This document shows, one piece after another, positions 6,241-62,900 of a stretch of DNA of 64,000 bases (position 1 is the first letter of the stretch; each line of letters opens with the position of its first letter). A program made the translations under genes and the position numbers. The DNA lies in assembly GCA_039030075.1 (NCBI GenBank), contig JBCCEW010000012.1, forward strand, positions 62,001 to 126,000. The letters are read 5' to 3'. Source of the stretch: Myxococcota bacterium (GTDB taxonomy: Bacteria; Myxococcota_A; UBA9160; SMWR01). Under the pieces are notes generated by a model that saw only the letters and a program-made list of their open reading frames with translations, ran no database searches and was not told the DNA's origin.

Positions 6241-6819
6241 GTGCGCTACGCCCCCGAACACAAGGACCAGACCCGTGAGCGCATCCTCGCCGAAGCGCGG
6301 CGCCTGTTCCGACGCCACGGCTTCGAGGGGGTGAGCCTCGACGCGGTGATGAGCGCGGCCGGACTCACGCGGGGCGGCTTCTACAAGCACTTCCGGTCGA
6401 AAGCCGATCTGTTCGCGCGGGCCCTGGATCACGAGGCCGACTTCGTCGCGCGGATGCGGGCCCGCGAGGGGCGCAGCGCCGAGGCGCTCCGCGAAGGCGC
6501 CCTCGAGGTGGTGCGCGGCTACCTGCATCCCGATCACCGCGAGCAGGTCGGACGCGGCTGCGACCTCGCGGCCCTGTCCGTCGACGTGGCGCGCGCGGGG
6601 AAGCGTGCGCGGAAGCAACATGCCACGAAGCTGCGCGAGCTCGTGGCCGAGTTCGAGCGAGGCCTCGGCTCTCCGGACACGCCCGACCCGCGGGCGCTCA
6701 CGTCGGTTGCGCTCTGTGTGGGAGGGCTGGTGCTGGCGCGGTCCGTCGACGACGAGGCGCTCGCCGAGGCCCTGCTCGATGCCTGCGAGGAAGCCGTCGC
6801 GGCTCGGCTCGACGCCTGA
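6241..6819 (+). CDS. TetR/AcrR-family transcriptional regulator
   Basis: 192 aa from the GTG at 6241. The N-terminal DNA-binding domain is textbook: TRERILAEARRLFRRHGFEGVSLDAVMSAAGLTRGGFYKHFRSKADLFARAL, with the recognition helix LTRGGFYKHF. The C-terminal helical ligand/dimer domain resembles the group with a conserved GC in RGCDLAALSVDVARAG. GTG 6241 is favoured because GGAGG lies four bases before it and the upstream ATG (6190) has no ribosome site and would put the palindrome inside the coding sequence. It is divergent from the GST operon and likely represses it until an electrophilic or aromatic ligand binds; the ligand is unknown. Confidence 0.85.
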   Translation: MRYAPEHKDQTRERILAEARRLFRRHGFEGVSLDAVMSAAGLTRGGFYKHFRSKADLFARALDHEADFVARMRAREGRSAEALREGALEVVRGYLHPDHREQVGRGCDLAALSVDVARAGKRARKQHATKLRELVAEFERGLGSPDTPDPRALTSVALCVGGLVLARSVDDEALAEALLDACEEAVAARLDA

Positions 6820-6834
6820 AGCCCGCGTGGTTCG

Positions 6835-7908
6835 CTACGCGGCCCCGTTGCCGGGCCGCGATGGAAGCGCCGCCAGCACGGCGTCGACCGTATCGACCGC
6901 GATCGGATCGCAGAGGCGCTCGAGGGGTTCGATCACGTAGACCGGATCTTCGATCTCTTCGGTCTTGCCGCCCTCGATCCAATCGTCGATGCCCCGCTTC
7001 GGAGCCGCCTCGGAGACGCGATACGCCGGACCGTCCTCACGAGAGACCTCGACGATCCAGCCGCCCGTTTCCACCCCGCGCGCTCCGATCTCGATCAGCA
7101 CGGGCGAGCCGACCGGGTCGAAGTCGAGGAGCGTGGCGACGCCCAGATCTTCCATCCAGAACATCGGATAGATGCGCCGCCGATGGACCACGCCGGCGCG
7201 CGACAGCGCCCGTTCGAGTCGGGCCCGGCGCTGTTGGATCCGGTTGCAGAGTCGGTCGCGGATCGGGGCGGTGGCCCGCGTGCGCCAGCGGCCCGAAGGG
7301 CTGCGGTACTGCATCGGCTGCAGGCGAAGCTTGTAGTCGAGCCAAGGGTTCCCGACGAGCACGTACCCCGGGTAGTAGTAGCGATATCCGTGCGCGACGG
7401 CGTGTTCCACCTCGAGCAGCATCGTGTACACGCCGAGGCCAAAGGGCTTGTACTCGGGATCGTAGAGTCCCAGCAGGCTCGCCACCGAATGCTGGCCCGT
7501 ATCGAAGTAGCTCGTGGCCACCAGTCGGTCGCCGTCCCACACCGATACCTCGCGCGTGTCGAAGAGCCGGTCGAAGGGTTCGGCGGTGAGCATCTCGCTC
7601 AGGCTCTCGTAGCGATAGCCGGCGAAGCGCTTCGACGTCTCGCGATAGAGGGACTCGCGGGCCGCATCGGACGTGGCGGGCCCGACCTCGGTGCGGAAAC
7701 GGTCGCCATTCTTGCGGAGCATCCGACGCAGGCTGCGGCTCGGTTGGTAGCGGTGCAGCGGAACGCGAATCGGAACCGTGGCCCAGACATCCCGGTGGAT
7801 CGTGATGAGGGGCGCGTAGGCCATCAGGCCGCCGGTGCGAAACCAACCTTCGGACAGGTACCGATCGAGGCAGTCACTCGCGGGCGTCTTCGGGAGCTCG
7901 GCCTGCAT
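6835..7908 (-). CDS. arginyl/leucyl-tRNA-protein transferase-like (ATE/Bpt, GNAT fold) protein
   Basis: 357 aa. Two blocks match the aminoacyl-tRNA-protein transferase family: YQPSRSLRRMLRKNGD (the FRPSRSMRRVLRRN block of Bpt/ATE) and GLYDPEYKPFGLGVYTMLLEVEHAVAHGYRYYYPGYVL (the C-terminal acetyltransferase-like core). The family moves Arg or Leu from charged tRNA to protein N-termini. In place of the cysteine cluster (CxxC...) that normally precedes VxVRV, this protein has APLITIHRDVWATVPIRV with no cysteine pair. It also has a roughly 100-residue C-terminal extension. Function may therefore have diverged. Start at ATG 7908, 53 nt after the hydroxylase stop, probably the same transcript. Confidence 0.65.
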   Translation of the reverse strand: MQAELPKTPASDCLDRYLSEGWFRTGGLMAYAPLITIHRDVWATVPIRVPLHRYQPSRSLRRMLRKNGDRFRTEVGPATSDAARESLYRETSKRFAGYRYESLSEMLTAEPFDRLFDTREVSVWDGDRLVATSYFDTGQHSVASLLGLYDPEYKPFGLGVYTMLLEVEHAVAHGYRYYYPGYVLVGNPWLDYKLRLQPMQYRSPSGRWRTRATAPIRDRLCNRIQQRRARLERALSRAGVVHRRRIYPMFWMEDLGVATLLDFDPVGSPVLIEIGARGVETGGWIVEVSREDGPAYRVSEAAPKRGIDDWIEGGKTEEIEDPVYVIEPLERLCDPIAVDTVDAVLAALPSRPGNGAA

Positions 7909-10376: not shown

Positions 10377-11198
10377 ATGTTCGAGCACGAGGCTCTCGCG
10401 AAGACCATCCCCACGCGACACCCGCGGAGCCGCGTTCCGCTCGCTGCGGCGATCGCTCTGCTCGTCGGAGTCGGAACACCGGCGATGGCGGCCACGGTCG
10501 TCGTCGACGCGGTGACCTCGGGCTTCTTCAAGGAGTCGGGGAACAGCGCTCACATCGTCGGATCGACGATCGAGAACTACCAGGCCGGCTACAACAAGAC
10601 GACGGATGAAACAGCGAAGAACTGGTTCGTGTTCGACGTGCCCACGCTCGGGCCCGACGATTTCATCGCCGACGCCGCGCTCAGCCTCTACCTGCCCACG
10701 TTTCCGGGAGACGCCGGCTTCGGCTACGGCTCGGCGGATCCCGAAGAGACGTACACCCTGTTCACACTCGACGCGCCCCAACTCTCCGTCATCGACGCCG
10801 ACCTGATCCTCGGCGATCTCGCCACCGGATCCGATTTCGACACCTGGTATCCGTTGCTCGGTGCGACCGGGGATATCGCCGCCGACGGTCCGGTGGTCAA
10901 GGCCGACGAGGGGACCGAGGTAATCTTCCCGTTCACGATGGAAGGCCTCATGTACCTCGACGGATCGATCGGGGGAACGATCCTGTTCGGAGGCCTCGTA
11001 TCGAGTATCGACAACGATCCGTCTCTCGACATCGCGGAAGGGCTCTTCCACCACACGCACCCCGGTGGGATCGGAGGGCCCGCGACACCCTCGGCGAAGC
11101 TGATCCTCGACATCGTGACGGTTCCCGAACCCGGTACGGGTCTCTTGATCGTGTTCGGTCTCGCGGGCATGGCGGTCGGGGGAGGCCGACGCCGCTAG
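10377..11198 (+). CDS. PEP-CTERM sorted extracellular protein
   Basis: 273 aa. An N-terminal signal peptide (hydrophobic LAAAIALLVGVGTPAMA, cleavage about AMA/ATV) is followed by an Asp/Gly/Thr-rich beta-type domain with no recognised family. The C-terminus VPEPGTGLLIVFGLAGMAVGGGRRR is a complete PEP-CTERM tripartite signal (VPEP, transmembrane stretch, Arg cluster) that exosortase recognises to anchor or secrete proteins in EPS-producing bacteria. The ATG at 10377 is preceded by AAGGAG. No exosortase lies in this window. The globular part contains FVFDVPTLG and a DUF-like Ser/Asp-rich core; function unknown. Confidence 0.85.
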   Translation: MFEHEALAKTIPTRHPRSRVPLAAAIALLVGVGTPAMAATVVVDAVTSGFFKESGNSAHIVGSTIENYQAGYNKTTDETAKNWFVFDVPTLGPDDFIADAALSLYLPTFPGDAGFGYGSADPEETYTLFTLDAPQLSVIDADLILGDLATGSDFDTWYPLLGATGDIAADGPVVKADEGTEVIFPFTMEGLMYLDGSIGGTILFGGLVSSIDNDPSLDIAEGLFHHTHPGGIGGPATPSAKLILDIVTVPEPGTGLLIVFGLAGMAVGGGRRR

Positions 11199-14370: not shown

Positions 14371-15132
14371 CTACCACGGAATCGGCGTGCCGTCCCACGC
14401 GAGGAAGGCGCCGTGATCGTCCGGCGTGCTCGCGTCGATCACGTCCAGCAGCTGCTCGGCGGCACGGCTTGGAGAGAACAGGCGCTCTGCCGGTACTCCC
14501 CCACGGTAGGGCTCCGACAGTTCGGTCTCGACGGTGCCCGGATGGAGCGCGAGACACAGGACGTTCGGTGCCCGCCGGCGACATTCGATCGAGAGCGTGC
14601 GAAGGAACATGTTCTGGGCGGACTTCGATGCGCGATAGGCGTACCAACCGCCCAGGCGGTTGTCGCCGATGCTCCCCATCCGCGCCGACAGGCTGGCGAA
14701 CACCGCGCGATCACCGTGGCGCAAGAAGCGCAGGAAGTGCTTCGCCAGTAGCAGGGGCCCGAAGGCGTTCACCTCGAACACCGCGCGGAGCGCTTCCGGC
14801 GAAACGTCCTCGAGCTTCTTCTCCGGGCGAAGTTCCGAACCCGCGTGGAGGAGCCCCGCGCAGTTCACCAGCCAGTGGAGCGTCGGTCCGCTCCACGACC
14901 CGATGCGCGCGGCCGCCGCTTCGAGGCTCGACTCGTCCGTCACGTCGAGGGGAGCCGTGAGCAGCCGATCGGGCTCCCGCTGGGCGAGTGCGCGCAGTGA
15001 TGCGCTCGACTCGGGTTCTCGCGCCGTCGCGACGACTCGATCGACGTCGTCGCGGCGCAGTAGCAACTCGGTGAGAGCGAGGCCCACGCCGCGACTGGCT
15101 CCTACGACGAGCGCGACGCGGGGCTCTGTCAT
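14371..15132 (-). CDS. short-chain dehydrogenase/reductase (C-factor-like)
   Basis: 253 aa classical SDR: NAD(P)-binding GASRGVGLALTELL (residues 10-23), the structural NCAG (LVNCAGLLHAG), catalytic Ser in SLSARMGSI and Tyr/Lys in YAYRASKSAQN. The spacing and the HPGTVETELSEPY segment resemble the C-factor (CsgA)/sniffer-like SDR group. The substrate is unknown. An ATG start at 15132 follows shortly after the secreted-protein gene on the same strand. Confidence 0.85.
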   Translation of the reverse strand: MTEPRVALVVGASRGVGLALTELLLRRDDVDRVVATAREPESSASLRALAQREPDRLLTAPLDVTDESSLEAAAARIGSWSGPTLHWLVNCAGLLHAGSELRPEKKLEDVSPEALRAVFEVNAFGPLLLAKHFLRFLRHGDRAVFASLSARMGSIGDNRLGGWYAYRASKSAQNMFLRTLSIECRRRAPNVLCLALHPGTVETELSEPYRGGVPAERLFSPSRAAEQLLDVIDASTPDDHGAFLAWDGTPIPW

Positions 15133-15157: not shown

Positions 15158-15493
15158 TCAGGGGGTCCAGCGGCCCGCGATTCTCGTAGCGGGGAGGGAT
15201 CGAGGCGGAGCCGGAGGGCCGCGGCGAACGAAGCGAGGCGGCGGCGTGTGAGCGGCGACCCACGCGTCCCAGCGCTTCGTGGCTTCCCAGGGCGGGAGTG
15301 CGGCGAAGCGTTCGATGACGGTATCCGGCGCTGGAGTCGTCGCGTCGCCGCCGGTGCTGCCCCGCACGACCAGTCGGGCCACCTGCGGATCGGGGTTCAG
15401 TCCATCGGTCGCTTGGCTCTCGGCGGAGGATGCGTGCGGTGCGACGCCGCCGAGCAGCAATGACAGTCCGATCGAGAAGACACGCGCGTTCAT
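15158..15493 (-). CDS. small secreted protein of unknown function
   Basis: 111 aa. The N-terminus MNARVFSIGLSLLLGGVAPHASSA is a Sec signal peptide with probable cleavage after ASSA. The mature part is Pro/Arg/Thr-rich with one short conserved-looking segment (IERFAALPPWEATKRWDAWVAAHTPPP) that may be a helix. No family is recognised. GGGAGAA precedes the ATG. It sits between the SDR and the CarH-like regulator on the same strand, 25 bp before the SDR start. Confidence 0.55.
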   Translation of the reverse strand: MNARVFSIGLSLLLGGVAPHASSAESQATDGLNPDPQVARLVVRGSTGGDATTPAPDTVIERFAALPPWEATKRWDAWVAAHTPPPRFVRRGPPAPPRSLPATRIAGRWTP

Positions 15494-15618: not shown

Positions 15619-16512
15619 TCATCGATGCGCCGAGAGCAGGGCGACGCGCTGCTCGAGCCTCTCGAAAGTGTCGAAGTGTTCGATACCTGGGGACCGTTCG
15701 ATCTGGGACGCACCGCAGCCCCCGAGCCAGAGATCGACATCGGCCGGTAGCGTCCCCCGAATGCGTCGTGTCGCGCCCCGCGCCGCGTGTGGGGAGAGCG
15801 TCACGATGCCGAGGGCGAGTGCTTCGGCGCCGCTCCGATCCACGGCCTCGAGGAGTTCCTCGATCGGTATGTCTGCGCCGAGATAGAGCGGGTGGGCTCC
15901 GGCTCCCAACGCGACGACCGCTGCCATCATCAAGCCGAGTTCGTGGGGCTCGTCGGGTGGCGTGGCGAACAGGACGCGCGGCGCACGGAGCGTCGCCGGG
16001 CTCGGTTGCAACGCAGTGCCCAGCATTCCGCGCAAGATTCCGGTAGCGAGGTGCTCGGCCGCGATGCCCGAATCGCCCGCGGCCCAGCGCGCTCCGAGCT
16101 CACGCATCAGCGGCTGGGCGACGCGGCGAACGAAGTCGGACGGTCCGAGGAGAGAGAGCTGCAGTCCGAGTAGGTGCTGCGCCTCTGCCGAGTCGAGTGC
16201 TTCGACGGCGTGACGAATCGTGGTCAGCGCTTCGGGTTCGGTGTCGTCTTCCGAGAGCGCTGCGAGGCTCGTTGCGTCGAGCTCCGCAACGCGGCCGATG
16301 CGGTTGCCGGCATCGACCGCCGCCTTGACCTGGCGGAGTCGCTCGAGGTCTTCCGGCGAGTAGCGACGCGTGCCCCCCGCCGTGCGCGTAGGGCGCACGA
16401 TGCCGTGCCGGTTCTCCCAGGCCCGGATCGTTTCGGCCGAGATCCCCGTCACGCGCGCCGCGACCCGCAAGGGGTAGGTCGAGGCTTCGGGCGCACGTCG
16501 GGCGGGGGGCAT
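15619..16512 (-). CDS. CarH/LitR-type MerR-family B12-dependent photoreceptor regulator
   Basis: 297 aa in three parts. Residues 12-78 are a MerR winged helix (YPLRVAARVTGISAETIRAWENRHGIVRPTRTAGGTRRYSPEDL). Residues about 95-170 form a four-helix bundle with the CarH signature W-x9-E-H (W143, E153, H154). Residues 178-297 are a cobalamin-binding Rossmann domain with the lower-axial histidine in DEPHELG (H190). Spacing between W, E, H and the axial H closely matches known AdoCbl photoreceptors, in which dark AdoCbl tetramers repress and light disrupts them. This supports a light-sensing repressor rather than a plain B12-binding protein. It diverges from the small membrane-protein genes across an AT-rich gap. 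Confidence 0.85.
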   Translation of the reverse strand: MPPARRAPEASTYPLRVAARVTGISAETIRAWENRHGIVRPTRTAGGTRRYSPEDLERLRQVKAAVDAGNRIGRVAELDATSLAALSEDDTEPEALTTIRHAVEALDSAEAQHLLGLQLSLLGPSDFVRRVAQPLMRELGARWAAGDSGIAAEHLATGILRGMLGTALQPSPATLRAPRVLFATPPDEPHELGLMMAAVVALGAGAHPLYLGADIPIEELLEAVDRSGAEALALGIVTLSPHAARGATRRIRGTLPADVDLWLGGCGASQIERSPGIEHFDTFERLEQRVALLSAHR

Positions 16513-16538
16513 GTCTCGAAACTACGCGGGGTGGCCCT

Positions 16539-16552
16539 TTTTGTCCAGAAAA
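16539..16552. promoter_or_regulatory. operator-like motif, copy 1 (near CarH-like gene)
   Basis: TTTTGTCCAGAAAA lies 27 bp upstream of the regulator start. It matches the site at 16657-16670 in 12 of 14 positions (only the central dinucleotide differs) and is nearly palindromic. Likely an autoregulatory binding site. Confidence 0.6.
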
Positions 16553-16600
16553 GATCAGTTCAATCAAATGAGCTGAGAGATGAAGGAAATCCATAGACAT

Positions 16601-16614
16601 TTGAATATATTCAA
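16601..16614. promoter_or_regulatory. perfect 14-bp palindrome
   Basis: TTGAATATATTCAA is a perfect palindrome in the middle of the divergent promoter region between the CarH-like gene and the small membrane-protein operon. It is AT-rich against a GC-rich background and could bind a dimeric regulator other than the MerR protein. Confidence 0.5.
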
Positions 16615-16656
16615 CTTATTTCGATCCTGAGGAGTCGGATCATCGCGAATGCTAAG

Positions 16657-16670
16657 TTTTGTATAGAAAA
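16657..16670. promoter_or_regulatory. operator-like motif, copy 2 (rightward promoter)
   Basis: TTTTGTATAGAAAA, 12 of 14 positions self-complementary, is the second copy of the motif at 16539-16552. It ends four bases before the TTGACA hexamer at 16675, the position expected for a repressor that blocks polymerase at the -35 element, as known for CarH-type regulators. Confidence 0.6.
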
Positions 16671-16674
16671 TATT

Positions 16675-16702
16675 TTGACAGAATCCGGACCGCTTCTAGC
16701 GT
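16675..16702 (+). promoter_or_regulatory. sigma70-like promoter for the small membrane-protein operon
   Basis: A perfect -35 hexamer TTGACA (16675-16680) is followed after 16 bases by TAGCGT (16697-16702), a weak -10. A weak -10 with an intact -35 suits a repressed, light-inducible promoter. The first gene starts at 16753. Confidence 0.55.
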
Positions 16703-16752
16703 GGAAGTCATCTCAGGAGGCCGACGCAGCCTCCTCGAAGAAGGACGTTGAC

Positions 16753-16989
16753 ATGGCATCCAAGCACGATTCGGTCCGACCCCCGGTCGCGGTCCACGCC
16801 GCCGCCGACGCCCAGCCCGCGGTCAGCAAGGCAAAACAGCTCTTCCTGCTCGCGGCGGGGCTCTCCTTCCTCGCCTCGATCTCCTTGTTCTTCACCGGAG
16901 ATCACGAGCGCGGGATCTTCGTGGGCATCTGGGTCCCTTCGATCCTCTCGATGGGCACCCTTCTCCTGGGGGCCGAGAACCGTGACTGA
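16753..16989 (+). CDS. small two-helix membrane protein, unknown function
   Basis: 78 aa. About 25 polar N-terminal residues are followed by two predicted membrane helices, LFLLAAGLSFLASISLFFTG (29-48) and GIFVGIWVPSILSMGTLLLGA (about 53-74), joined by a short charged loop DHER. No family is recognised. AAGGA lies at a fair distance before the ATG. It is the first gene after the CarH-controlled-looking promoter and overlaps the next small gene by 8 bp. Its size and position suggest a light- or stress-inducible membrane component. Confidence 0.65.
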   Translation: MASKHDSVRPPVAVHAAADAQPAVSKAKQLFLLAAGLSFLASISLFFTGDHERGIFVGIWVPSILSMGTLLLGAENRD

Positions 16990-17143
16990 TCTCGACATCC
17001 TGACCCTCGGTTGCGTCGTGAGCTTCATTGCAGGCGCCGGCGCGTATGTGTTCTTGCGAGAGCGATTCCAGCATGGACGGCGAGCGGCACGTCGGCTCGT
17101 CCCCGCCCCGGTGCGCACGCCCCGACGCCGCAAGGCAGCTTGA
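16982..17143 (+). CDS. single-pass membrane microprotein
   Basis: 53 aa from the GTG at 16982, overlapping the previous stop by 8 bp. Residues about 4-24 (LDILTLGCVVSFIAGAGAYVFL) form one hydrophobic helix, followed by a strongly basic tail (RERFQHGRRAARR...RTPRRRKAA) that should face the cytoplasm. No family recognised. Translational coupling with the 78-aa membrane protein suggests the two work together. It is easy to miss because of its size; codon use fits the surrounding genes. Confidence 0.55.
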   Translation: MTDLDILTLGCVVSFIAGAGAYVFLRERFQHGRRAARRLVPAPVRTPRRRKAA

Positions 17144-17210
17144 GACGTCACGGGGCTCCGGTCGCCCCCATCGACCGGGGCCCCATGAACGCAGCTTGCG
17201 GAGAGGACCC

Positions 17211-18569
17211 ATGAGCGTCGACATGTCGAACGCGCGCGCCGTACCGCGCCTCTCGGGGCAGGACCTCGCCTTCCTGGCTTTCGAGACCCGACGGCGTCCC
17301 ATGCACATCGCCGTACGCGCCTCCTTCGAACTGCCCCTGGGCGTGCCCGCCCCGACGCTCTCCGGGCTGCGCGCGATCTTCGCGCGCGCGGTGGCCCGCG
17401 AGCCCGCGCTGCAGCGACGCCTGCTCCGGTCCTGGTTCCGCAAACCGCGCTGGGGTGACATCGGGCCGATCGACGTCGCCCGCCACATTCGAAGTCTTCG
17501 CGTCGATCCCAAGCATCGCGCGCGGGATGTCGACGTCTGTCTGCGCGCACCGCTCGACCGGGACCTACCCCTCTGGGAGATCTGGCTCCTCGATACGCCC
17601 GAGCGCCCGCGGACCTTCGAACTCCTGCTCAAGGTGCACCAGGTGCTGATCGACAGCGTGGGCGCCGTGGCGCTCTTCGAGCGGCTGCTCGAGTCCGCGC
17701 CAGTCCCGACGCTCGTCGGGCGCGGGCCGGGGCCGGAGCTCTACCCCGACGCCGAGTCCCTGGGTTCCGCGGCAAACCTCGCACACGATCCGTTCCGCAG
17801 TACCGATCGCACCGCCCTCAACGGGGGCATCGCCGAGCAACGACATCGCAGACTCGACGTCCCCTCCGCATCCTTCGACCGCGCGGCTCGGCGCCTCGGT
17901 GGGAGCCGCAACGATCTCTTGCTCTCCGTCGTGACCGGGACACTCCAGCGCTGGTTCGCTCACTCGCGGTGCTCGTTCCCGATGCGTTTGCGCGCGTTCT
18001 GTCCCGTGAGCCCGAGGCCGCGGGACAGTCGCGCGGGCTTCGGCAACCGCATCTCGCCCTGGTTCGTGCCGCTCCCGATGGACGAGCCGACCCTGGCGGG
18101 TCGCGTGGCCCGCGTGAACGCCGCGACGCGGGCCTTCCGCCGCAAGCAGGCCGAAGGCCGCGGCAATCAGATGGCTCGCTGGGTGCAGCGACTCGGCGGT
18201 TGGGTGGCGCGCCTGGGAATGGCGATCGCAAACTACCGACGCGACTACAACCTGATCGTGACGAGCGCGAGGGGCCCTCGCGCGCTCTCGCTTCTTGGCG
18301 CGCACCTGCGCGAGCTCACCGCGTTCGCGCCGCTGGTACCGGGCCAGCGCGTCGCCGTCGCCGTCGTCGAGTACGAAGGGCGTCTCTTCTTCGGGGTGAC
18401 GGAAGGCTGGAAGCGCGCGACTCGCGGACGTCGCCTGATGGAATCCCTGGCCGAGGAGCTGACGCTGCTGGAGCGCTCCGCTCTGCGGGACGACCGAGCC
18501 GACTCGCCCCGCGCGCTGCGCACCTCGCGCGCCTTGCGGAGCCGGGTCTCCGCGGCGGTCGGCAGCTAG
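17211..18569 (+). CDS. WS/DGAT/MGAT-family acyltransferase with altered active-site motif
   Basis: 452 aa resembling wax ester synthase/diacylglycerol acyltransferases: N-terminal LSGQDLAFLAFETRRRPMHI (like the D..FL..E....MH. start), mid-region NDLLLSVVTGTLQRWF, and C-terminal ARGPRALSLLGAHLRELTAFAPL (like the NVPGP...G block). The catalytic HHxxxDG appears here as HQVLIDS (143-149): the second, catalytic His is Gln and the Gly is Ser. In characterised enzymes that His is the base, so activity is doubtful or altered. The ATG at 17211 has GGAGAGGA upstream. It follows the two tiny membrane-protein genes after 67 bp and probably belongs to the same light-responsive unit. Confidence 0.8.
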   Translation: MSVDMSNARAVPRLSGQDLAFLAFETRRRPMHIAVRASFELPLGVPAPTLSGLRAIFARAVAREPALQRRLLRSWFRKPRWGDIGPIDVARHIRSLRVDPKHRARDVDVCLRAPLDRDLPLWEIWLLDTPERPRTFELLLKVHQVLIDSVGAVALFERLLESAPVPTLVGRGPGPELYPDAESLGSAANLAHDPFRSTDRTALNGGIAEQRHRRLDVPSASFDRAARRLGGSRNDLLLSVVTGTLQRWFAHSRCSFPMRLRAFCPVSPRPRDSRAGFGNRISPWFVPLPMDEPTLAGRVARVNAATRAFRRKQAEGRGNQMARWVQRLGGWVARLGMAIANYRRDYNLIVTSARGPRALSLLGAHLRELTAFAPLVPGQRVAVAVVEYEGRLFFGVTEGWKRATRGRRLMESLAEELTLLERSALRDDRADSPRALRTSRALRSRVSAAVGS

Positions 18570-59998: not shown

Positions 59999-62900
59999 AT
60001 GACCACCCTCCGTCGAGCCGACCTCTCCACGCCGAAGCTCGCCCTCGCGTCCCGCGAGCGCGTCGGCGCTGCCCTGCCCTGGGTGCGCTCCGAACCGATC
60101 GCGGTCGTCGGCATCGGCTGCCGGTTTCCCGGTGCGGAGGGGCCGGAGGGCTTCCTCCACCTGCTGCGCGAGGGCATCGACGCGGTGGGCGAACTTCCGA
60201 ACGAGCGCTGGGACCGCGAGCGCTATTACGACCCGGATCCGGACGCCCCGGGCAAGACCTATGTCACGCGCGGCGGGTACCTCGAGGACATCGCGGGTTT
60301 CGACGCTGCGCGCTTCGGGATCGCGCCGATCGAAGCGCTGCGGATGGACCCGCAGCAGCGCCTCTTGCTCGAAGTCGGCTGGCACGCGCTGGAGCACGCG
60401 TCCATCGCGCCCGAATCGCTCTACGGCGCCAAGGCGGGTGTCTTCTTCGGGATCAGCAGCTTCGACTACGCGAGTGTGCTCCGGCAACGAACGCCGATCG
60501 AGGAACTCGACGGCTACGTCGCCACCGGGAACGCCTTCAGCGTCGCCGCAGGACGCGTGTCCTACGCCCTGGGTCTCACGGGGCCGAGCCTGGCCGTCGA
60601 TACCGCTTGCTCCTCGTCGCTCGTGTCGGTCCATCTCGCGATGCAGAGTCTGCGTCTCCGCGAATGCGAGGTCGCGCTGGCCGGCGGGGTCAACCTGCTG
60701 CTGCAGCCCGAATCGACCATCAACTTCGCGAAGGCGCGGATGCTGGCGCCCGACGGCCACATCAAGGCCTTCGATGCGCGCGCCGACGGGTTCGTGCGCG
60801 GCGAAGGCTGCGGCGTCGTCGTGCTGAAGCGGCTCTCCGACGCACTGGCCGCTGGCGACGACGTCTGGGCGGTCTTGCGTGGCTCCGCGGTCAATCAAGA
60901 CGGTGCGTCCAGCGGCTTGACCGCGCCGAATGGAACCGCCCAGCGCGAGGTGATCCGCGCTGCGCTCGAAGGCGCGGGTGTCGAGGCCGCGCAGGTGGGG
61001 TTCGTCGAGGGGCACGGCACCGGCACGGCGCTGGGAGACCCGATCGAACTGGGCGCGCTTGCCGAGGTCTACGGGAGCAGCCGTTCGGAGCATCCGCTCC
61101 AGATCGGATCGGTCAAAGCGAGCATCGGCCACCTCGAGAGCGCCGCTGGCATCGCGGGCCTGATCAAGGCGGTGCTGACCCTGCGCTTCCGCGAGATCCC
61201 CGGGCAGCTGCACTTCGACACGCCCAGTCCCCACATCGACTGGGAGCATTCCGGCCTCGAGGTGGTTCGCGAACGCCGTCCCTTCACCCCGATCGACGGG
61301 CGTCGCCTGGCGGGTGTGAGCTCGTTCGGTTTCAGCGGCACGAACGCCCACGTGCTCCTCGAGGCGGCACCAGAAATTCGTCCGGAAGAAACCCGTACGA
61401 GCGGACCGCACACCCTCGTGCTCGGCGCGCGCGATGCGGCCCGGGTCGATGCGCTCGCCGAGGTGTGGGCCGAGGGGCTCGAGGGCGCGTCCGAGGACAC
61501 GGTGCCGGCGCTCGTGCGCACCGCATGGGCGGGGCGCGATCGCGGGCCCGAGCGTCTCGCCGTCAGTGGCGCCGACGGCACCGAACTCGCGACCCAGCTG
61601 CGGGCCGCGCTCGCCGGAACCGCGCGAACCGGCGTCGCACGCGGGCGCGTGCGCAACGGTTCGGCGGCCGGGAAGTTGGGGTTCCTCTTCTCGGGCCAGG
61701 GCTCCGCGTGGGTCGGCCTGGGTCTCGAGCTGCGCGAGCGCGAGCCTGTGTTCGCCGAGGTGATCGAGCGCTGCGCTGCCGTCCTCGGAGAGCGCGCTTG
61801 GCTCGACCCGGGTCGTGTCGCTGCTGACGCCGTCATCGACACGGGCGACGCGCAGCCCGCGCTCTTCGCGTTCGAGGTCGCGATGGCGGAGCTCCTTCGC
61901 TCGAGAGGCCTCGAGCCCGACTACCTGCTCGGACACAGCGTCGGCGAGCTGGCCGCGGCGTGCGTCGCCGGGGTGATCGAGCTGAAGGACGCGGCGCGGC
62001 TCGTGCGGATTCGTGCCGACGGGATGTCCGCCCTTCCGTCGGGCGGCAAGATGGTCGCGCTCACCGCCGACCCGGCGCGTGTAGAGCACGCGGTGCGCGG
62101 CGCCGGAACCCAGGTTTCGATCGCCGCCTACAACGGGCCACGACAGGTGGTGGTGTCGGGCGCGGGCGACGCCGTCGATGCCTTCGTCGCCTCCCTGGAA
62201 GTCGACGACGCCCGGGCACTCGCCGTATCCCACGCATTCCACTCGGTCCTCATGGAGCCAGCGCTCGACGCCCTGAGCGCGGCAGTTGCCGAGATCGAAT
62301 TCCAGCCGCCGCGCATTCCGCTGGTCTCCAGTCGCTCGGGCGCGCTCGCCGGGTCCGAGATCGGACGACCGGACCATTGGGTGCGGCAGCTGCGCGAGCC
62401 CGTTCGTTTCGCCGACGCCGTCGATGCACTCTGGACGGCCGGCGTTCAGGAGTTCGTCGAGGTCGGCCCCGGCGCGGCTCTGGTGGGACTCACGCGGGAG
62501 ATCCTGGCGGACGACCCGAGCGTGATGGCGATTCCGACCGCCACCCGGCGCCGCGGCGAGCTGCGCTCGCTGTCCGACGCGGTGGGTGCGCTGGCCGTGC
62601 GCCGCGCCGATCGCGACCTCACACCGTGGCTCGGCGAGGGGCCGCGGACCGCCGAAGCACCGCGCACCCCCTTCGAACACACTCGAGTCTGGCCGCTCGA
62701 AATCGAGGGCGAATCGCTCGGGCCGGCGGCGCCGCCCTCGCGGGGCGAGCGGCGTCCCGTCGACGCGTGGGGCTGGACGCCCAGCGTCCGTCGCCTCGGT
62801 GCTCCGACTCCCGTCGCGGAACCCGACGGGCCGATCGTGGTCCTGGGCGATGGCGGTGCCGACGCCGTCGCCGAGGTCTTCGAAACCCGAGGCGTCGCCT

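Follow-up and report, generated by a model that had tools for sequence, protein, structure and literature searches.

We analysed a window of 64 kb (64,000 nucleotides, positions 62,001 to 126,000 of contig JBCCEW010000012.1 in assembly GCA_039030075.1) from a bacterium of the phylum Myxococcota. Within it, a gene for a CarH/LitR-type regulator lies divergent to two overlapping genes for microproteins, mic1 and mic2, and a gene for a WS/DGAT-like protein (Table 1). The original prediction had read this locus as a CarH-type B12 photoreceptor controlling two tiny membrane proteins and an acyltransferase-like protein, and had held such an output to be unseen elsewhere. We computed the protein family of the regulator, its key residues, the operator-like site, conservation and gene linkage. 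The genes named in the original prediction proved real, although the starts of mic1, mic2 and the WS/DGAT-like gene had to be corrected to those in Table 1.

Table 1. Features of the regulator-microprotein locus, numbered from the first base of the window
Feature	Position	Strand	Description	Basis
CarH/LitR-type MerR regulator (carH)	15619..16512	-	297 amino acids; helix-turn-helix and B12-binding domains; Wx9EH, ExHxxG
Weaker second site	16542..16562	-	TGAACTGATCTTTTCTGGACA; carH end of the gap; possible autoregulation	second-best window match, 8.3-9.1 bits
Predicted CarH operator	16660..16680	+	TGTATAGAAAATATTTTGACA; inverted TGTnnA-N9-TnnACA; includes -35 box of microprotein promoter
-35-like box of divergent promoter	16675..16680	+	TTGACA; no consensus -10 found	sequence
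Microprotein 1 (mic1)	16753..16989	+	78 amino acids; predicted two-helix membrane hairpin; conserved GIFVGIWVPSI-type motif
Microprotein 2 (mic2)	16982..17143	+	53 amino acids; one hydrophobic stretch and basic tail (topology read from sequence)
WS/DGAT-like protein	17211..18569	+	452 amino acids; degenerate active site HQVLIDS instead of HHxxxDG
Short-chain dehydrogenase/reductase (SDR)	14371..15132	-	downstream of carH, same strand; closest to NF006532 (PRK09009)	226.6 bits, cut-off 330 not reached

The regulator contains an N-terminal MerR helix-turn-helix (MerR_1, PF13411; 54.5 bits against a Pfam cut-off of 21.6) and the four-helix B12-binding_2 domain (PF02607; 33.7 bits, cut-off 23). 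In a phmmer search of the Protein Data Bank (PDB), residues 10-287 aligned with the solved Thermus CarH (E 1.1e-31); the alignment spans the Rossmann region, and ExHxxG is present. W143, E153, H154 and the lower axial H190 were found where the original prediction had placed them, and they are invariant in 29/29 aligned CarH-type proteins, with the glycine of ExHxxG kept in 28 of the 29. As judged by these sequence features, the gene product is a class I (B12-domain) CarH/LitR-type regulator. A scan of genome contigs with the regulator as query returned no relatives.

Homologous copies of both microprotein genes are present in relatives' loci (21 of mic1 and 14 of mic2), with mismatches peaking at third codon positions. 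The GTG start of mic2 overlaps mic1 by 8 nt, and across the window and relatives the overlap is exactly 8 nt in 13 of 14 neighbouring pairs and 11 nt in the other. By these marks of coding sequence, mic1 and mic2 are real genes, as the original prediction had proposed. An AlphaFold model of mic1 places helices at residues 22-48 and 51-76, with low confidence (mean pLDDT 64.6). The mic1 protein of the window had no match at E 1 in Pfam or at E 0.1 in NCBIfam. Among 20 mic1 members searched against Pfam, seven families were matched, each by one member only (best E 0.016), and none was accepted; a mic1 profile had no match in the PDB at E 1. A consensus-peptide search found no mic1 on plasmids. 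In openly available titles and abstract openings on CarH/LitR, light-induced genes and small membrane proteins, we found no description of the pair.

We searched for shared promoter elements by expectation-maximization (EM) in 20 regions upstream of CarH, LitR-like MerR and mic1 genes in relatives, with the window and locus L067 (28 bases) excluded; the regions were picked after the genes had been looked at, and the motif search itself was unsupervised. The output was a 21-bp motif with consensus TGTCAAGATTTTATCTGGACA and sites in 19 of the 20 regions, some of them weak. Scored across the window, this motif had its top match at 16660-16680 (24.6 bits) and its second at 16542-16562 (9.1 bits), both in the gap between carH and mic1; outside the gap, scores did not exceed 1.9 bits. 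A hand-built matrix, made from ten 21-mers that we selected visually, knowing the window site, gave a score reached by 0 of 2000 shuffles of the gap. Across the 5.76 Mb genome, the derived operator pattern has two matches at up to two mismatches, and the sole exact one is 16660-16680. This site has one TnnACA core on each strand, the forward core being the -35 box TTGACA. TnnACA is the core of published CarH repeats (PMC9304148), and the -35 is one of the promoter elements with which CarH operators overlap (PMC8156234, PMC9304148). Because a lineage-conserved operator-like site overlies their -35 box, the regulator very probably controls the divergent genes, in agreement with the original prediction. 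A perfect 14-bp palindrome, TTGAATATATTCAA, lies between the two operator-like sites at 16601-16614, and a similar stretch is found in L063.

We then scored the motif in gene neighbourhoods (54 sources, 775,164 bases) at a threshold of 14 bits, in counts that include the EM training regions. There were 53 sites, near mic1, carH, photolyase, cyclopropane fatty acid (CFA) synthase and sigma-factor genes. Forty-nine of them lay outside called genes, compared with 11.4% of bases, and 20 column-permuted matrices gave 0-3 strand matches, compared with 89 for the real matrix. Sites were directly upstream of mic1 in 11 of 22 copies and, in three more, before an SRPBCC gene leading into mic1; of the 12 mic1 copies outside the training set, window included, five had a site at this threshold. 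A site also preceded 5 photolyase genes, 4 CFA-synthase genes and 9 sigma-factor genes, the gene clusters being named by Pfam scans of representatives, and DUF1722 (RudS-type) genes were likewise preceded by the motif. For a set of 69 more distant loci, taken as independent, we had dropped loci with fewer than 200 bases upstream and removed 11 putative duplicates of relatives' loci by a hand-made list. The exact pattern TGTnnAN9TnnACA occurred upstream of mic1 in 6 of the 69, with 0.21 expected, and 13 of the 69 reached p<=0.05, with about 3 expected, mainly in Myxococcota/Deltaproteobacteria and Gemmatimonadetes. We predict that in relatives this motif identifies a light-type regulon comprising photolyase, CFA synthase, a sigma factor, carH and the microproteins. 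The photolyase and best CFA-synthase loci of the window's own genome had no operator site above 1.9 bits, suggesting that those genes are beyond the regulator's direct reach there. At L060 (7024-7203(-)), a mic2 gene stands beside CarH with an operator site, and no mic1 was detected ahead of it.

The third divergent gene encodes a protein with the WS/DGAT fold (PF03007, 70.3 bits; PF06974, 48.9 bits; both above cut-offs), which bears out its earlier description as WS/DGAT-like; the HHxxxDG motif has been lost. The second histidine of HHxxxDG is catalytic. The motif is kept in every homologue aligned over it (six rows representing five genes, since L226 and L099 are the same gene), and the protein of the window is more likely, to judge from this residue pattern, to be a lipid-binding or structural partner than a wax or triacylglycerol synthase. 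We rejected a dedicated acyltransferase output shared with relatives, as 5 of the 60 genomes searched, counting the window's own, had matches at E <=1e-30. In G001, a genome of the same genus (L233:3117-5548(-)), genes for a fasciclin, an SRPBCC-like protein and a WS/DGAT homologue that keeps HHxxxDG stand in a row behind an operator-like sequence of 20 bp, one base shorter than the motif (11.6 bits). This arrangement hints that WS/DGAT membership of the regulon may be older than the locus in the window.

These data suggest that light switches on the microprotein pair, and we consider it likely that a CarH-type repressor keeps mic1-mic2, and probably the next gene, silent in the dark and is released by light. 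The regulator, carrying adenosylcobalamin (AdoCbl) in darkness, would bind the 21-bp site at 16660-16680 and cover the -35 box, silencing mic1-mic2 and probably, by read-through, the WS/DGAT-like gene; at the weaker site, 16542-16562, it would restrain its own promoter as well. On illumination the Co-C bond would break, the repressor would release, and the genes would be expressed. The products of mic1 and mic2 would be made as a translationally coupled pair of small inner-membrane proteins. We infer here the AdoCbl binding, the light response, the operon structure and the functions of the microproteins and the WS/DGAT-like protein.

A number of observations weigh against this switch, and they concern the regulator, its operator and the reach of the regulon. 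The Rossmann B12-binding domain (PF02310) scored 22.2 bits, under the cut-off of 32.1, and the NCBIfam CarH equivalog NF052513 scored 131 bits where 400 are needed. Thermus CarH has a histidine beside the tryptophan that becomes the second (upper) cobalt ligand after photolysis (PMC8156234); the window regulator has Ala144 at this position, which is histidine in 1 of 29 aligned CarH-type proteins and is not established as family-defining for CarH/LitR class I. CarA of M. xanthus has the B12 motif and does not require B12 (PMC8156234), and class II LitR is the effector of a short LOV protein (PMC9758184). All but the equivalog score would suit a CarA-like regulator that uses the same operator without need of B12 and is taken off it by an antirepressor or by a different photosensor, the part that the LOV protein plays for class II LitR. 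We regard such control as unlikely, because invariance of the Wx9EH and ExHxxG residues (save the one glycine) is what would be expected if the adenosyl group were still used.

The operator also departs from precedent. With CarH of Thermus thermophilus, Bacillus megaterium and Myxococcales (class I LitR), the locus shares the MerR helix-turn-helix and B12 domain, Wx9EH and axial histidine, TnnACA half-sites over a -35 box, and divergent target genes. By contrast, the characterised CarH operators are tandem 11-bp repeats, whereas the window site is a single inverted pair; a candidate tandem 11-bp repeat operator in the gap did not reach significance (three repeats, p 0.075; four repeats, p 0.385). 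High plasticity has been described for CarH operators in myxobacteria (PMC9304148). A scan for a full sigma-70 consensus promoter found none. Of the 22 mic1 copies, 8 lack a site of at least 14 bits, either directly upstream or before a leading SRPBCC gene, and the WS/DGAT-like gene, which is rarely linked, has few homologues in relatives. Planctomycete mic1 promoters mostly have no site, and MerR matches near planctomycete mic1 are weak and at the level of the helix-turn-helix, suggesting that control of mic1 may differ in planctomycetes. The cultured bacterium Lacipirellula limnantheis I41 (L202) has the microprotein close to a MerR gene.

The genome also encodes a second CarH-type protein, 46% identical to the regulator, which could act at the locus. 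The gap beside its gene contains overlapping operator-like sites in 11-bp steps, of about 12-15 bits, before a gene for a sigma-70 factor. The window site might thus be served mainly by this paralogue or by the adjacent sigma factor, leaving the neighbouring regulator autoregulated only or redundant. We consider this very unlikely: the window regulator's own gap holds the strongest site, and several other genomes have mic1 beside a CarH or LitR-like gene. The second CarH-type gene is divergent to the gene for the sigma-70 family factor (regions 1.2, 2, 3 and 4; L078 (G000:C4:72000-90000), 6372-7742(-), 7770-7812), and this sigma factor has an upstream site in 9 of 14 copies.

Many MerR regulators sense a ligand or redox state, and this one might respond to B12 status or redox rather than light, with an operon devoted to cobalamin or oxidative stress. 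That reading would leave little reason for the same motif to precede photolyase, CFA, DUF1722 (RudS-type) and carH genes, and we hold it to be highly improbable; in other bacteria, such genes have links to light (PMC9758184, PMC11417400).

We next considered how widely the microprotein pair occurs. Copies of mic1 were found in 18 of 60 searched genomes (own included, one marginal), in 26 of 282 genomes drawn from the phylum (own included) and, in a scan of one genome per species, at no fewer than 570 confirmed loci in many phyla. The best 80 of these at least 570 loci carry the labels Myxococcota or Deltaproteobacteria, Planctomycetota, Gemmatimonadetes, Acidobacteria, Actinobacteria/Acidimicrobiales, Opitutales and others. 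In the flanks fetched for the best 80, counted with no matched control set, mic1 is near CFA-type genes in 12 loci (some weak), amine-oxidase-type genes in 12 (some weak), DUF1365 genes in 7, SDR genes of the window's type in 9 (one weak), CarH-type genes in 15 (10 weak) and LitR-like MerR genes in 3. Among relatives, 9 of 21 mic1 copies have a CarH or LitR-like MerR gene no more than 5 kb away, and photolyase is also among the neighbours of mic1-mic2 in other genomes. By its gene company, mic1 is widespread in light-type gene clusters, yet it has no name in Pfam or NCBIfam. The overlapping pair is conserved across many phyla, so that the microprotein output is not peculiar to this locus and the claim of an output unseen elsewhere falls; what is new is the conserved pair of microproteins, together with the regulon that the operator defines, and less the single locus.

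Two further families were seen in such clusters. A second LitR-like MerR type, with no B12 domain, is divergent to mic1-mic2 (L092:1394-2392(+), L094:7598-8578(+), L095:907-1884(+)); it has a conserved C-terminal CxCPxH segment that matched no Pfam family. In several light-type clusters, a family of about 40 amino acids without a Pfam match (L105:9839-9961(+), L063:3254-3376(-) and others) lies ahead of a protein that fuses SDR and AhpC/TSA.

The targets of the class I CarH proteins named above are carotenoid genes, whereas the predicted targets in the window are membrane microproteins and a WS/DGAT-like protein. Carotenoid genes beside carH were rejected, the genome's two SQS_PSY (phytoene-synthase-type) matches being on another contig, C10. 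The original prediction had also limited known CarH/LitR proteins to carotenoid genes. This limit is too narrow: LitR regions and regulons of Pseudomonas hold phrB, an SDR, an FAD oxidoreductase, ufaM, cryB and folE (PMC9758184). They share with our loci the LitR-type MerR repressor, and their content overlaps with that of relatives' clusters (photolyase, SDR, CFA-type, RudS-type). The Pseudomonas gene lists, in the part of that paper covered here, name no pair of the mic1-mic2 type; they include unnamed hypothetical proteins, which stand outside the comparison. The RpoE-ChrR singlet-oxygen regulon of Rhodobacter contains cfaS, phrA, RSP_1087-1091 and the fasciclin RSP_1409 (PMC7074977), the same kinds of gene as in relatives' clusters (CFA synthase, photolyase, SDR, fasciclin), with the hypothetical RSP_1088 outside the comparison. 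It is under sigma/anti-sigma control, whereas the locus in the window has a predicted B12 repressor.

Guided by this gene company, we propose that mic1-mic2 would share with CFA synthase, DUF1365, amine oxidase and SDR enzymes a programme that protects the membrane against light and singlet oxygen; our guess is that the pair would probably be a membrane-embedded helper or stabiliser of lipid-modifying machinery. We give roughly even chances to the broader view that mic1-mic2 is a phylum-spanning two-protein module of the inner membrane that serves the light/singlet-oxygen response of bacteria, that is governed by CarH/LitR-type operators in Myxococcota and Gemmatimonadota, that is part of, or chaperone to, enzymes chemically remodelling membrane fatty acids in light, and that is here coupled to a catalytically dead WS/DGAT-like partner.

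On the other side of the regulator, carH and the SDR gene are presumably co-transcribed, and homologues of this SDR adjoin mic1-mic2 in other myxobacteria. Between the two genes lies a possible secreted 111-amino-acid open reading frame (15158-15493(-)) with no homologue in the fetched loci. Elsewhere in the window, 10377-11198(+) encodes a predicted secreted protein with a PEP-CTERM-like terminal signal (VPEPGT...GGGRRR), spotted by eye.

Carotenoid genes are the best-known targets of B12 photoreceptors, and this locus and its relatives point to a conserved membrane output across many phyla. The analysis provides a defined operator motif and a predicted light regulon, sigma factor included, for uncultured Myxococcota, and the two-gene target is small enough for testing in a laboratory host. 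The pair may help to explain how membrane lipids are protected from light in bacteria that are not phototrophic.

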